64,000 nt of DNA from a virus, in IMG/VR virus record IMGVR_UViG_3300040807_002082, positions 1 through 64,000 of that record. One strand, 5' to 3'. Both the position numbers and the translations under genes were made by a program. The notes under the pieces were generated by a model. The model did not search any database. It was not told the DNA's origin and was given only the letters and a program-made list of their open reading frames with translations. Below, piece by piece: positions 9,101 to 30,089 of this stretch. Within the stretch, counting starts at the first letter, position 1. Every line of letters starts with the position of its first letter.

Positions 9101-9176
9101 TGGTGCCGGCACCAAGATTCGAACTCGGGACCTTCTCATTACAAGTGAGCTGCTCTACCAACTGAGCTATGCCGGC
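9101..9176 (-). tRNA. tRNA-Thr (anticodon TGT)
   Basis: Reads as a complete cloverleaf on the minus strand. Acceptor GCCGGCA pairs with TGCCGGC, the T-arm contains GTTCGAATC, the anticodon loop is CTTGTAA, and CCA is encoded. The first pair of the anticodon stem is mismatched. Confidence 0.95.
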
Positions 9177-9178
9177 CT

Positions 9179-9255
9179 TGGTCTCGGTGGAGAGATTCGA
9201 ACTCCCGACCCTTTGGTCCCAAACCAAATGCGCTACCAGACTGCGCTACACCGAG
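9179..9255 (-). tRNA. tRNA-Pro (anticodon TGG)
   Basis: Minus strand, 77 nt with encoded CCA. Acceptor CTCGGTG pairs perfectly with CACCGAG; the anticodon loop is TTTGGGA. Separated from tRNA-Thr by only 2 nt, so they are surely co-transcribed. Confidence 0.95.
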
Positions 9256-9256
9256 G

Positions 9257-9451
9257 TTAATACAAACTATTTACACTGGGTATAGTATTACCAGTTTTTA
9301 AACAGAATGCTCTTTCATTATCAGTCGTAAACTTTTTCTCTAGTTCAACGACTGCATTATTACAATCCCATAATAAATCAAACTCTTGGTACATTGTAAA
9401 TTTTGCCTCATCAAATCCTAGAGGAAAACTGATAATAAAAAGAGTCCACAT
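9257..9451 (-). CDS. Exported two-Cys microprotein between tRNA genes
   Basis: 64 residues. I choose the ATG at 9451 because AAAGGA lies 6 nt upstream; an earlier ATG abuts the tRNA-Leu CCA end. Hydrophobic N-terminus (MWTLFIISFPLG), then a charged part with two Cys (LWDCNNAV and RAFCLKTG). It resembles the protein at 8867-9082 in size, N-terminus and Cys spacing. Unknown function. Confidence 0.55.
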   Translation of the reverse strand: MWTLFIISFPLGFDEAKFTMYQEFDLLWDCNNAVVELEKKFTTDNERAFCLKTGNTIPSVNSLY

Positions 9452-9466
9452 TATATTTCCTTTCAT

Positions 9467-9551
9467 TGGTGCCCGCACCCAGACTCGAACTGGGAAGCCA
9501 TACGGCGGGAGATTTTAAGTCTCCTGAGTTTACCAATTTCTCCATGCGGGC
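9467..9551 (-). tRNA. tRNA-Leu (anticodon TAA)
   Basis: Minus strand, 85 nt with long variable arm and encoded CCA. Acceptor GCCCGCA pairs with TGCGGGC; the anticodon stem GGAGA/TCTCC encloses CTTAAAA. Confidence 0.95.
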
Positions 9552-9556
9552 TTTAT

Positions 9557-9633
9557 TGGCCCGCCCACCAGGACTCGAACCTGGAACCTACAGCTTAGAA
9601 GGCTGTTGCACTATCCAATTGTGCTATGGACGG
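9557..9633 (-). tRNA. tRNA-Arg (anticodon TCT)
   Basis: Minus strand, 77 nt, encoded CCA. Acceptor CCGTCCA pairs with TGGGCGG (one T-G wobble); the anticodon stem ACAGC/GCTGT encloses CTTCTAA. It reads AGA, which is abundant in the 39198-40505 structural gene. Confidence 0.95.
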
Positions 9634-27033: not shown

Positions 27034-27212
27034 TGCTTCTACACCTTTTCGTTTCTCCCATGGCTGCCTACTTCATGACTTTGGTGTGGGCAGCCATTTT
27101 TGGTAATACTGCAGGTACATCTGAGCTTATGATAGAAGAATGGATCATATGTATACAGTTATACCTTGGTGTTGCACTTATGATACAATTTAAGAAATCT
27201 TCAAAAGAATAG
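27033..27212 (+). CDS. Small membrane protein, two helices
   Basis: 59 residues, coupled to the preceding stop by TAATG. Hydrophobic stretches at about 1-20 and 36-50, ending in a KKSSKE tail. Ends directly before the tmRNA promoter. Function unknown. Confidence 0.55.
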   Translation: MLLHLFVSPMAAYFMTLVWAAIFGNTAGTSELMIEEWIICIQLYLGVALMIQFKKSSKE

Positions 27213-27241
27213 TTGACATTTCCGTGTTTTTGTATTATATA
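27213..27241 (+). promoter_or_regulatory. Sigma70-like promoter for the tmRNA gene
   Basis: TTGACA, 17 nt, TATATA, ending 3 nt before the acceptor-side helix of the tmRNA precursor. Confidence 0.75.
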
Positions 27242-27250
27242 TAGACTGTG

Positions 27251-27309
27251 GACGTTGAAACAAAATAAAGACGGATCGGACTCGGGTGCGATTCCCGACG
27301 CCTCCACCA
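27251..27309 (+). ncRNA. ssrA: Permuted tmRNA, acceptor piece
   Basis: In this permuted gene the 3' end of the mature molecule is encoded first. The T-arm TCGGG/CCCGA encloses TGCGATT, followed by CGCCTCC, discriminator A and encoded CCA ending at 27309. The CGCCTCC strand pairs with GGGGGCG at 27380-27386 and creates the G3-U70 pair that marks alanyl-tRNA. A 9-bp helix TAGACTGTG (27242-27250) with CACAGTCTA (27316-27324) closes the precursor around this piece. The 5' boundary is approximate. Confidence 0.9.
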
Positions 27310-27379
27310 AAAGCACACAGTCTACTGGTGAATGAGATAACAATGCTCATAATAAAAGTCCAAACTGTGTGTTTTTGAT

Positions 27380-27540
27380 GGGGGCGAATTAGGATCGACG
27401 GACGTAATAGTTGAGTGGAGTTCACCGTGTTGACCTACGTTATTCGGTCAAACAAACTAAATGCAAACGATAACTTTGCACCATCTGAATCATTTGCTCT
27501 AGCAGCATGATCACAGGGGGCTGGCCACTTGCCTAGCAAC
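27380..27540 (+). ncRNA. ssrA: Permuted tmRNA, coding piece with proteolysis tag ANDNFAPSESFALAA
   Basis: Begins GGGGGCG, the 5' acceptor strand, then the conserved AGGATCGACGG of tmRNA. The resume codon GCA is at 27463, and the tag reads ANDNFAPSESFALAA with a TGA stop at 27508-27510. ANDN...ALAA is the alphaproteobacterial style. A GACC...GGTC pseudoknot-like pairing lies just before the tag. tmRNA rescues stalled ribosomes and marks nascent proteins for degradation. The 3' limit is approximate. I see no smpB gene in the window. Confidence 0.92.
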
Positions 27541-27556
27541 AGAAAAGTGGTTTTTT
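27525..27556 (+). terminator. Rho-independent terminator after tmRNA
   Basis: CCACTT pairs with AAGTGG and is followed by six T. Reads through, if at all, into the outer-membrane protein gene, for which no separate promoter is obvious. Confidence 0.7.
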
Positions 27557-27583: not shown

Positions 27584-28372
27584 ATGCGTAAACTACTAGT
27601 AACAACAGCACTTGTTTTTACCGCGGGTTCAGCAATGGCCGCAGAATTGGGTGGAGAAATTTCCGTAGATATCGCAGAGACAGCTGCAGGAGATTGGGGT
27701 GCAACCACATCTTTTGACTTAGGTATTGCGTCAATGGGTTCAGCTGTTCCAGCATTTGGAGCGATTGAACTTGATATGGACGAAGAAGGAGATATTACTC
27801 TTGACGAATGGAAAATCGGTACTGTCATTAATGGCGATGCTGTAATTTCAATCGGTGACCAAGGTAATATTTGGTTGGATCGCGAATCAGATGCTGCACA
27901 CGCAACAACCGCGGATCCAGCAATGAAGGAATCAGTACAAGTAACGGCTTTAGGAGCGTCTATGGCAATTGGCTTTACTGATGTCGAAGCGGACGTAACT
28001 GATATTGAAAACGTCCAAGGCAAATACGAAATGGGAGTAGGTGCGAATATTAATGTTGCCGCAGCAGGCGATTACAATATGAACTCTGAAGAATGGACAA
28101 TCGGCGGCCGCGCAGAAGTAGGTGTTAACGATATGTTCGCTATCGGTCAAATGGTAACATACGGCTCAGCTGATGAGAAAATCGGTTATGAATCCGATAT
28201 CTCAGCATTTGGTGTTACTGCATATTTGAACGGTGATGCTGATGAGCTTGCACAAAACGTTGGTGGTTCATATACATATGATCTAAACGGTATTGAACTA
28301 GGTGCTGGTGTTAACTATAACATTGACACTGAAGCAACTACACCATCTGTATCTGCATCATTTGCTTTTTAA
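27584..28372 (+). CDS. Outer-membrane beta-barrel (porin-like) protein
   Basis: 262 residues from ATG 27584, which has GAAAGGA in front (an earlier in-frame ATG lies in the terminator T-tract). A clear signal peptide ends ...AGSAMAA. The mature part alternates short strands rich in Gly/Val with acidic loops and ends in ASFAF, the terminal-Phe signature recognised by the BAM machinery. Very acidic, as in marine porins. Probably placed in the host outer membrane during infection, where it could mask receptors or change permeability. No porin subfamily can be named by eye. Confidence 0.8.
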   Translation: MRKLLVTTALVFTAGSAMAAELGGEISVDIAETAAGDWGATTSFDLGIASMGSAVPAFGAIELDMDEEGDITLDEWKIGTVINGDAVISIGDQGNIWLDRESDAAHATTADPAMKESVQVTALGASMAIGFTDVEADVTDIENVQGKYEMGVGANINVAAAGDYNMNSEEWTIGGRAEVGVNDMFAIGQMVTYGSADEKIGYESDISAFGVTAYLNGDADELAQNVGGSYTYDLNGIELGAGVNYNIDTEATTPSVSASFAF

Positions 28373-28445: not shown

Positions 28446-28470
28446 AAACTGATTACGTATGGAGGATGAC

Positions 28471-29022
28471 ATGTCTTTGAAATTAAAAGAACTTACGTGG
28501 GCTCATCACCAAGCAGCAGAAAGAAGAGCGTTTGCTAAACAGCTTTTAAGTGGTAAAATTGAACCAAAGCTGTATCATAAGTTCTTGTGTTGCCAATATT
28601 TGAATTATCAAATTCTTGAGTCATACACAGAAGTACCATCGCATTTATTACCGATAAGAAGAGAATCACGTATCTGGACAGACATCCGTGAGCTTGAGGT
28701 AGAATACGATTTAACACCCGATGGAAATTACCCTCAATCCGTCGAGGATTATAACAAACATATTAAGAGTCTTGCTGAAAAAGGAGATCAACACGGTCTT
28801 CTTGCGCATATGTATGTACGTCATTTTGGCGATTTACATGGCGGTCAGATGATTAAAAAACGAGTTCCTGGTTCTGGTAAAATGTATGAGTTTGAACTCG
28901 AAAAAGAATATCTCATTGAGGAATTTCGTAAATATCTTGATGACGATATGGCTGAGGAAGCGAAAATATGTTTTGATTTTGCATCTCAGCTTTTTGATGA
29001 ATTGTCTAAAGAAATAGATTGA
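28471..29022 (+). CDS. Heme oxygenase (biliverdin-forming, HO-1 family)
   Basis: 183 residues. The heme-ligand region TWAHHQAAE fits TxxxHxxAE with proximal His13. The distal-helix motif GDLHGGQ is at residues 120-126, preceded by YVRHF. HO uses reduced ferredoxin and O2 to open heme to biliverdin, CO and Fe2+. Start chosen at 28471 (GGAGG upstream) rather than an in-frame ATG that overlaps the ribosome site. The bilin reductase gene follows within 400 nt. Shorter than the plant and cyanobacterial enzymes (about 230-240) but complete in motifs. Confidence 0.93.
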   Translation: MSLKLKELTWAHHQAAERRAFAKQLLSGKIEPKLYHKFLCCQYLNYQILESYTEVPSHLLPIRRESRIWTDIRELEVEYDLTPDGNYPQSVEDYNKHIKSLAEKGDQHGLLAHMYVRHFGDLHGGQMIKKRVPGSGKMYEFELEKEYLIEEFRKYLDDDMAEEAKICFDFASQLFDELSKEID

Positions 29023-29046
29023 CATTTCATTAAACTGTTATATTAT
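29019..29046 (+). promoter_or_regulatory. Sigma70-like promoter downstream of heme oxygenase
   Basis: TTGACA, 16 nt, TATTAT, overlapping the heme oxygenase stop. It would express the 57-aa protein, the AbrB-like protein and the bilin reductase independently of heme oxygenase. Confidence 0.7.
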
Positions 29047-29075
29047 TAAATTGTAGCAAACAAACGGAGGGTAAC

Positions 29076-29249
29076 ATGGAACAAGCAATTCCTGTATACG
29101 AAGATGTTGAAGTTAAACCTGTAGTACGCGGAGAGCGTATGCTACGTAGTGAAGCTGCACGAACTAGGCGACGAGAATTGAAGACCGTTCGTGAGAATCG
29201 AGTCATTAACGAATGGGCACGTGCTCGGCGCGCAAAGAAGAAGAAATAA
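29076..29249 (+). CDS. Basic 57-aa protein
   Basis: GGAGGG ribosome site. Acidic first third, then strongly basic (ARTRRRELKTVR and ARARRAKKKK), which suggests RNA or DNA binding. TAATG coupling with the next gene. No family recognised. Confidence 0.6.
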   Translation: MEQAIPVYEDVEVKPVVRGERMLRSEAARTRRRELKTVRENRVINEWARARRAKKKK

Positions 29250-29452
29250 TGACAAGTTATTTGACAGAAGTAAAGGAGGATCCCCTTAACGGGGACCTCT
29301 ACATCGAGTTCCCACCAGAATTTTTAGAAGAATTAGGATGGGGAGAAAACGACGAACTGATTTGGGAACAAACCGATCTTGGTTGGTCAATAAGGAAAAA
29401 TGAAGATGCATCCATTATGGATCAGGCTCGAAAAACTGGCGACCAATCTTAG
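29249..29452 (+). CDS. AbrB/SpoVT-like small DNA-binding protein
   Basis: 67 residues from ATG 29249. NGDLYIEFPPEFLEELGWGE followed by DELIWEQTDLGWSI resembles the swapped-hairpin AbrB/MazE fold (x-I-P-x-E-x-x-x-x-L-G-W-x-x-G/N-D). It may regulate transcription or act as an antitoxin-like protein; no toxin is adjacent. Overlaps the bilin reductase start by 53 nt. Confidence 0.55.
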   Translation: MTSYLTEVKEDPLNGDLYIEFPPEFLEELGWGENDELIWEQTDLGWSIRKNEDASIMDQARKTGDQS

Positions 29453-30089
29453 CAAAAAATTTGACGAGCATTTTACAAAATGGGATAATCCAAAATACGA
29501 TGATAGTCTAAAGTTTCCTGGATGGAAAGACGATTTTTGGTTATCTCCTTTAATTCGTAAAGCGCATTTAAAAACAATCGTACCTGAGGACGGTAAAGGA
29601 TTGTGGCTAATGCATGTGAATGTATTTCCACGCGAAGGTATTGAATTGCCAATCCTTGGGTTTGATATTGTAGCAGGTCCTAAAAAGATTACAGGATCTT
29701 TTATGGATTTTAGCCCATTACACGGTCATCCACATCCGTACCATGATTATATGGAAATGGTAGTTAAAAATCTTGAATGGGTTAAAGCAAGAGAATTACC
29801 ACCTTGGGCAAAAGAAATCTTTTCAGAGGATATGATTGCAGTTGGTAACATTAATACAGACGAAGAATTAAATCAATTCATTGACGTCACGACAGATCTT
29901 ACAGATTATTATTTAGATAACATTGTAAAAAATGCGTTCAGGTCAAATCGCGATACAAAACCAATTCTAAACAAATATTGCTTTAATCAAAAAATGAATC
30001 CACATTTACATCGTTCAATTGAAGCAATGGGCATCTCAAAACAAGATAAGAATCGTTACGTTGATACTATTTTATTTGAGGAGATATAA
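29400..30089 (+). CDS. Ferredoxin-dependent bilin reductase (HY2 family, PcyX/PebS/PcyA-like)
   Basis: 229 residues. The order of family landmarks is intact: HPLWIRLEKLA start, VFPREGIELPILGFDIVAG (about 75-93), FMDFSPL with the conserved catalytic-type Asp103, ELPPWAKEIFS (132-142), and YCFNQKMNP (193-201). The usual Asn-Asp of the last motif is Asn-Pro here. These enzymes reduce biliverdin with electrons from ferredoxin to phycobilins such as phycoerythrobilin. Lacks the extra length of plant HY2. Which bilin is made cannot be read from sequence; PcyX-type is my best guess because the context is non-cyanobacterial. Confidence 0.88.
   Translation: MKMHPLWIRLEKLATNLSKKFDEHFTKWDNPKYDDSLKFPGWKDDFWLSPLIRKAHLKTIVPEDGKGLWLMHVNVFPREGIELPILGFDIVAGPKKITGSFMDFSPLHGHPHPYHDYMEMVVKNLEWVKARELPPWAKEIFSEDMIAVGNINTDEELNQFIDVTTDLTDYYLDNIVKNAFRSNRDTKPILNKYCFNQKMNPHLHRSIEAMGISKQDKNRYVDTILFEEI

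Follow-up and report, generated by a model that had tools for sequence, protein, structure and literature searches.

A permuted tmRNA gene in a T4-like phage locus

The window analysed here comprises 64,000 nucleotides of the IMG/VR record IMGVR_UViG_3300040807_002082, a linear record of 77,680 bases that represents a fragment of an aquatic T4-like phage. The T4-like genes of this record include those for topoisomerase II subunits, SbcC/SbcD homologues, the gp43 polymerase and UvsX, as well as a gp41-like helicase, gp59, gp32 and ribonucleotide reductase; the nearest named relatives of its polymerase share only approximately 46% identity. On the plus strand at 27213-27556, where a first-pass annotation made from the sequence had placed a phage-borne, permuted, two-piece tmRNA, the presence of a genuine tmRNA gene was confirmed, with order, ends, tag and coordinates in agreement with that annotation. 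The covariance search that it had proposed as a check placed two tmRNA models well above their cut-offs: RF04321 (tmRNA_permuted) matched 27248-27510 with 125.6 bits (family cut-off 47 bits), and RF01849 (alpha_tmRNA) matched 27209-27553 with 110.3 bits (cut-off 50 bits). The permuted two-piece form is typical of alphaproteobacteria, and the alphaproteobacterial affinity assigned to the gene was borne out. Besides its score, the gene has the further hallmarks of RF04321, namely an acceptor part that lies upstream of the coding part (the encoded CCA ends at 27309 and the coding piece begins at 27380), a tRNA-like domain with a G3-U70 pair, and a tag reading frame. ARAGORN reported four tRNAs in the window and missed the tmRNA gene; as it does so, a model trained on phage genes would improve annotation. 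A tRNA cluster lies on the minus strand at 9101-9633 and comprises Thr(UGU), Pro(UGG), Leu(UAA) and Arg(UCU).

The gene order around the tmRNA is kept in relatives, running from gp43 through small genes to the tmRNA, a porin-like gene (where present) and heme oxygenase, followed by bilin reductase, gp59, gp32, uvsX and gp41. Among 48 records with a relative of the window's uvsX, many of which are short fragments, a tmRNA match was found in 20 and exceeded the family cut-off in 19. Two records cover the interval from gp43 to heme oxygenase and no tmRNA was found in them; therefore, the gene is dispensable and can be lost, and the two records offer cases of natural absence in which hosts or lifestyles could be compared.

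The porin-like gene directly downstream (27584-28372, plus strand) was assigned on the basis of a signal peptide, a C-terminal F and a predicted outer-membrane beta-barrel (model pLDDT 77.5). Foldseek related its product to general porins, including OmpU (E 1.9e-8) and the Rhodopseudomonas blastica porin (E 5.8e-8), and no match was obtained among Pfam, PHROGs and 50,697 phage records. A porin is an odd member of a phage early-gene cluster. Further downstream, positions 28459-30089 hold a cassette of heme oxygenase (PF01126) and ferredoxin-dependent bilin reductase (PF05996), which is of the hemO-pcyX kind described from marine phages (PMC11480375).

Promoter, fold and tag of the phage tmRNA

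The promoter previously proposed for this gene is present at 27213-27241 and conserved in 16 relatives. Its -35 element TTGACA (27213-27218) and -10 element TATATA (27236-27241) are separated by a 17-nt spacer; the former reads TTGAC or TTTAC in 16 of 16 T4-like relatives, 33-36 nt ahead of the P2 start, and the end of the -10 hexamer mostly lies 68-70 nt before the CCA end across 106 viral tmRNAs. A simple promoter scan did not list this combination because the second hexamer has A as its last base. Transcription is predicted from the sequence to start near 27248, which would coincide with the mature 5' end of the acceptor piece.

The fold was evaluated in 16 non-redundant T4-like relatives, window included. 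The mature acceptor piece (27248-27309, with the RF04321 match starting at 27248) is predicted to be 62 nt long and to consist of a P2 strand, the T arm, the 3' acceptor strand and the encoded CCA; a length of 62-63 nt is predicted in 16 of 16 relatives. In P2, the 5' strand GUGGAC (27248-27253) pairs with the 3' strand GUUCAC (27420-27425), with changes on both sides in 2 pairs and 96 of 96 cells paired, a count somewhat favoured by construction, as partners were picked per sequence as the best match within a short interval; a more even-handed measure comes from the swapped-partner control (z=-5.0). The T arm TCGGG-UGCGAUU-CCCGA (27282-27298) has its stem paired in 80 of 80 cells, with both-side changes in 3 of 5 pairs. 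Within this closely related phage group, two types of T loop occur (window 27287-27293 and relatives), namely the tRNA-like UUCGAUA and UGCGAUU, and the cellular alphaproteobacterial-type GGCAGUA and GGCGGUA. The 3' acceptor strand CGCCUCC is followed by discriminator A and the encoded CCA (27299-27309). As had been read from the sequence, the ends GGGGGCG (27380-27386) and CGCCTCC (27299-27305) form 7 of 7 pairs, including the G3-U70 alanine identity pair; all 112 of the acceptor-stem cells are paired, 2 of the pairs have changed on both sides, and G3-U70 is invariant in the 16 relatives and present as GT in 151 of 153 viral tmRNAs.

An intervening loop of 70 nt (27310-27379) separates the CCA from G1 in the coding piece and is expected to be cut out of the precursor; the median length of this loop is 82 nt in viral genes vs 31 nt in the cellular sample. 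It is closed by a 14-bp precursor stem, in which CAAAAGCACACAGU (27308-27321) extends the acceptor stem through the CCA and pairs with ACUGUGUGUUUUUG (27364-27377). This stem is paired in 201 of 225 cells across the 16 relatives, and 9 of 15 positions have changed on both sides. True partners clearly outperform swapped ones (z=-9.2, matched by none of 5000 permutations), in a control that preserves column composition but not relatedness. Across 123 viral precursors, their own pairs reached a mean of -15.5 kcal/mol vs -6.3 kcal/mol for swapped pairs.

The initial annotation had described two competing helices in the precursor as a possible processing switch. Both exist as complementarity, but only CACACAG/CTGTGTG is conserved, as part of the precursor stem. 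The other would pair the leader TAGACTGTG (27242-27250) with 27316-27324; in folds that contain the leader, this helix always has a pairing probability of 0, and the swapped-partner test in relatives, window excluded, gave z=-1.9 and -0.5. Because the promoter puts the transcription start near 27248, six of the leader's nine bases would fall outside the RNA, and the leader is mostly promoter DNA devoid of a conserved RNA helix. Based on fold probability, conservation and promoter geometry, the leader/loop switch was rejected.

The coding, mRNA-like piece extends from 27380 to approximately 27553, where the RF01849 match ends. Its tag frame (27463-27510) runs from the alanine resume codon GCA (27463-27465) to the stop TGA (27508-27510; UGA in the RNA) and is open throughout, encoding ANDNFAPSESFALAA with an Ala-Ala end, exactly the tag that had been read before. 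Relatives carry similar tags (ANENFAPSGYALAA, ANDNYKPSGFALAA and the like), and the frame is intact, with an AA end, in all parsed relatives. Among 150 parsed viral cases, 80 different tags were found, all with the AA ending. This uniformity is partly built in by the parser, which required A as the penultimate residue and A, V or S as the last.

At the 3' end, CCACUU and AAGUGG form a terminal stem-loop that encloses the conserved GCAACAGAA (27525-27550); its stem covaries in 15 relatives (z=-5.6 vs swapped partners in the same kind of control, 0 of 5000 permutations). Together with the TTTTTT that follows, this stem had been taken for a terminator bracketing the gene. While both elements are present and the stem is conserved, the T-run is specific to the window and absent at this position from most relatives, and a terminator role was rejected. 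Since most relatives have no T-run here and their next gene, equipped with a ribosome-binding site, begins within approximately 30-50 nt, the tmRNA probably shares one transcript with the gene behind it.

Relation to cellular alphaproteobacterial tmRNAs

This kind of gene is mostly known already. Phage-borne permuted tmRNAs have been published: Buchholz et al. (2022) described one in the Methylophilales phage Melnitz as well as pelagiphage cases, and they counted 133 unique structures of phage tmRNAs, of which 53 were two-piece and 50 of these 53 came from marine or aquatic samples (PMC9004378). In IMG/VR, each of two DNA patterns matched at least 119 stretches, and permuted phage tmRNAs in that collection number well over a hundred. 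The impression that a permuted phage tmRNA is unusual thus did not hold, in view of the published structures and the well over 100 further IMG/VR stretches.

Among cellular genomes, a class-wide search in a set drawn around a genome with the record title Erythrobacter revealed a permuted tmRNA in 107 of 115. In the cellular sample, the acceptor piece begins with a hairpin ahead of P2, and a cellular sequence measured from the start of this hairpin is 82 nt long, the length reported for the acceptor piece of S. meliloti (PMC2245857). Among cellular genes, 32 of 33 with high scores and 12 of 18 with lower scores have a 5' hairpin of -4 kcal/mol or better, vs 13 of 150 viral genes. This hairpin is missing from the window gene, where it is deleted in the alignment to the RF01849 model. 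The loss of the hairpin and the placement of the start site appear to be a consistent trait of the phage lineage; no description of them was seen in the papers covered, which were largely open-access ones.

A maximum-likelihood tree of 111 genes, built with a short search, placed the window gene within a set of 52 exclusively viral members (96% SH-aLRT), on a short alignment that leaves many inner branches weak. This set includes the genes of phages Melnitz and RcSimone-Hastad and none of the 51 cellular alphaproteobacterial genes, although sampling was biased: the viral genes had been collected by way of uvsX or of motifs resembling the window, and the first cellular set was picked by best score. 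The phage genes of RcXuper, V10, Bajun and Cp1R7A-A1 fall outside the viral set; therefore, more than one acquisition is likely.

The tag had also been suggested as a means of naming the host. This did not succeed: a genome-wide scan of 84,980 species genomes returned only phage contigs in metagenome-assembled genomes (MAGs) and no cellular gene that carries a tag of this type. Three permuted-tmRNA hits of this kind lie on MAG contigs with T4-like or neighbouring phage genes. Two of them come from a MAG titled Rhodobacteraceae bacterium Water_Bin34, in which eight permuted tmRNAs were counted, two or more of them on T4-like phage contigs; phage contamination of this reference genome could mislead host assignment by tag.

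The phage lineage has very probably kept its tmRNA for a long time, and the gene is no recent capture. A more specific reading, to which we give an even chance, is that it represents an old, phage-specific class of permuted tmRNA which lost the 5' hairpin, starts transcription at the mature 5' end so that the 62-nt piece needs no 5' trimming, carries its loop on an extended stem containing the CCA, and continues its transcript into a phage porin gene.

Proposed function and comparison with known systems

The gene very probably encodes a functional two-piece tmRNA that takes part in trans-translation together with SmpB, alanyl-tRNA synthetase, RNase P and proteases of the host. SmpB (PF01668) was not found in 8 phage records, including records of 182 and 201 kb, which may be fragments; therefore, host SmpB would have to serve. 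In the mechanism that we propose, host RNA polymerase or a phage-modified enzyme would initiate at approximately 27248, and the precursor would fold into a stem of about 22 bp, composed of acceptor and loop stem, with the CCA embedded. By analogy with cellular two-piece tmRNAs, host RNase P and 3'-end nucleases could remove the loop, which would yield the 62-nt acceptor piece and a coding piece of approximately 170 nt, joined via the acceptor stem and P2. The host alanyl-tRNA synthetase would charge the molecule with alanine through G3-U70, and host SmpB would bring it to ribosomes that have stalled on a broken mRNA. Such a ribosome would then move into the tag frame, append ANDNFAPSESFALAA, terminate and be recycled, and the LAA-ended product would presumably be passed to host proteases. 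A likely gain for the phage is that ribosomes would stay available during the breakdown of host transcripts.

The phage RNA might instead act as a decoy that competes for host SmpB and ribosomes and blocks host trans-translation, with no protein tagging. There is precedent in phage DS6A, whose tRNA-like-domain-only tmRNA, or a molecule like it, inhibits tmRNA, perhaps by titrating SmpB (PMC4131195, PMC11915505); however, a decoy would need neither the open, AA-terminal tag frame seen in all parsed relatives nor a covarying stem in the 3' domain, and we regard this explanation as improbable. Marginally less probable still is tagging directed at host proteins, which has been proposed for Melnitz as a route to amino-acid recycling (PMC9004378) and would be in line with phage tags that are unlike most tags in the cellular sample. 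A tmRNA has no known targeting element, though, and tagging follows stalling, such that selectivity could arise only from which mRNAs are cut. Finally, although tmRNA genes are integration sites and fragments of them travel in prophages (PMC9004378), a recently captured host gene, prophage scar or contamination devoid of phage function is refuted for practical purposes by the locus, the tree and the tag search, given a complete gene at a conserved position inside a T4-like replication cluster, a viral group apart from the 51 cellular genes, and a tag type present in no cellular gene of the 84,980 species genomes (phage contigs aside), among which no identical host gene turned up.

With trans-translation as the preferred reading, aquatic phages appear to keep a ribosome-rescue RNA of their own over the long term, one with a distinct architecture and a dependence on host SmpB. 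This makes possible a concrete test of why lytic phages carry tmRNA.

One-piece phage tmRNA genes, such as those of mycobacteriophage Bxz1 and Bacillus phage G, are unpermuted. The one-piece phage tmRNAs resemble the window gene in being phage-borne and in having a tag (PMC4131195). With the RF01849 tmRNA of S. meliloti and Caulobacter, the window gene shares its gene order, an acceptor stem with G3-U70, the AA tag end and the conserved segments GGATCGACG and GCAACAGAA. It differs in an acceptor piece that lacks the 5' hairpin and is predicted to be 62 nt long compared to 82 nt in S. meliloti (PMC2245857), in a longer excised loop on a longer stem, and in a promoter that adjoins P2. Compared to the two-piece tmRNA of Melnitz and the pelagiphages, which is likewise permuted, phage-borne and related to alphaproteobacterial genes (tag ANDNYVPVDYALAA), it comes from another phage with other neighbours; Melnitz carries a glutamine riboswitch in the 3' domain, and an Rfam search found no riboswitch in the window. 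The Melnitz gene falls into the same 52-member viral group, its promoter is likewise of the TATAAATA type, and a 5' hairpin is not obvious in it by eye. Its tmRNA is also reported to share a transcript with the gene behind it, albeit a different neighbour (PMC9004378).
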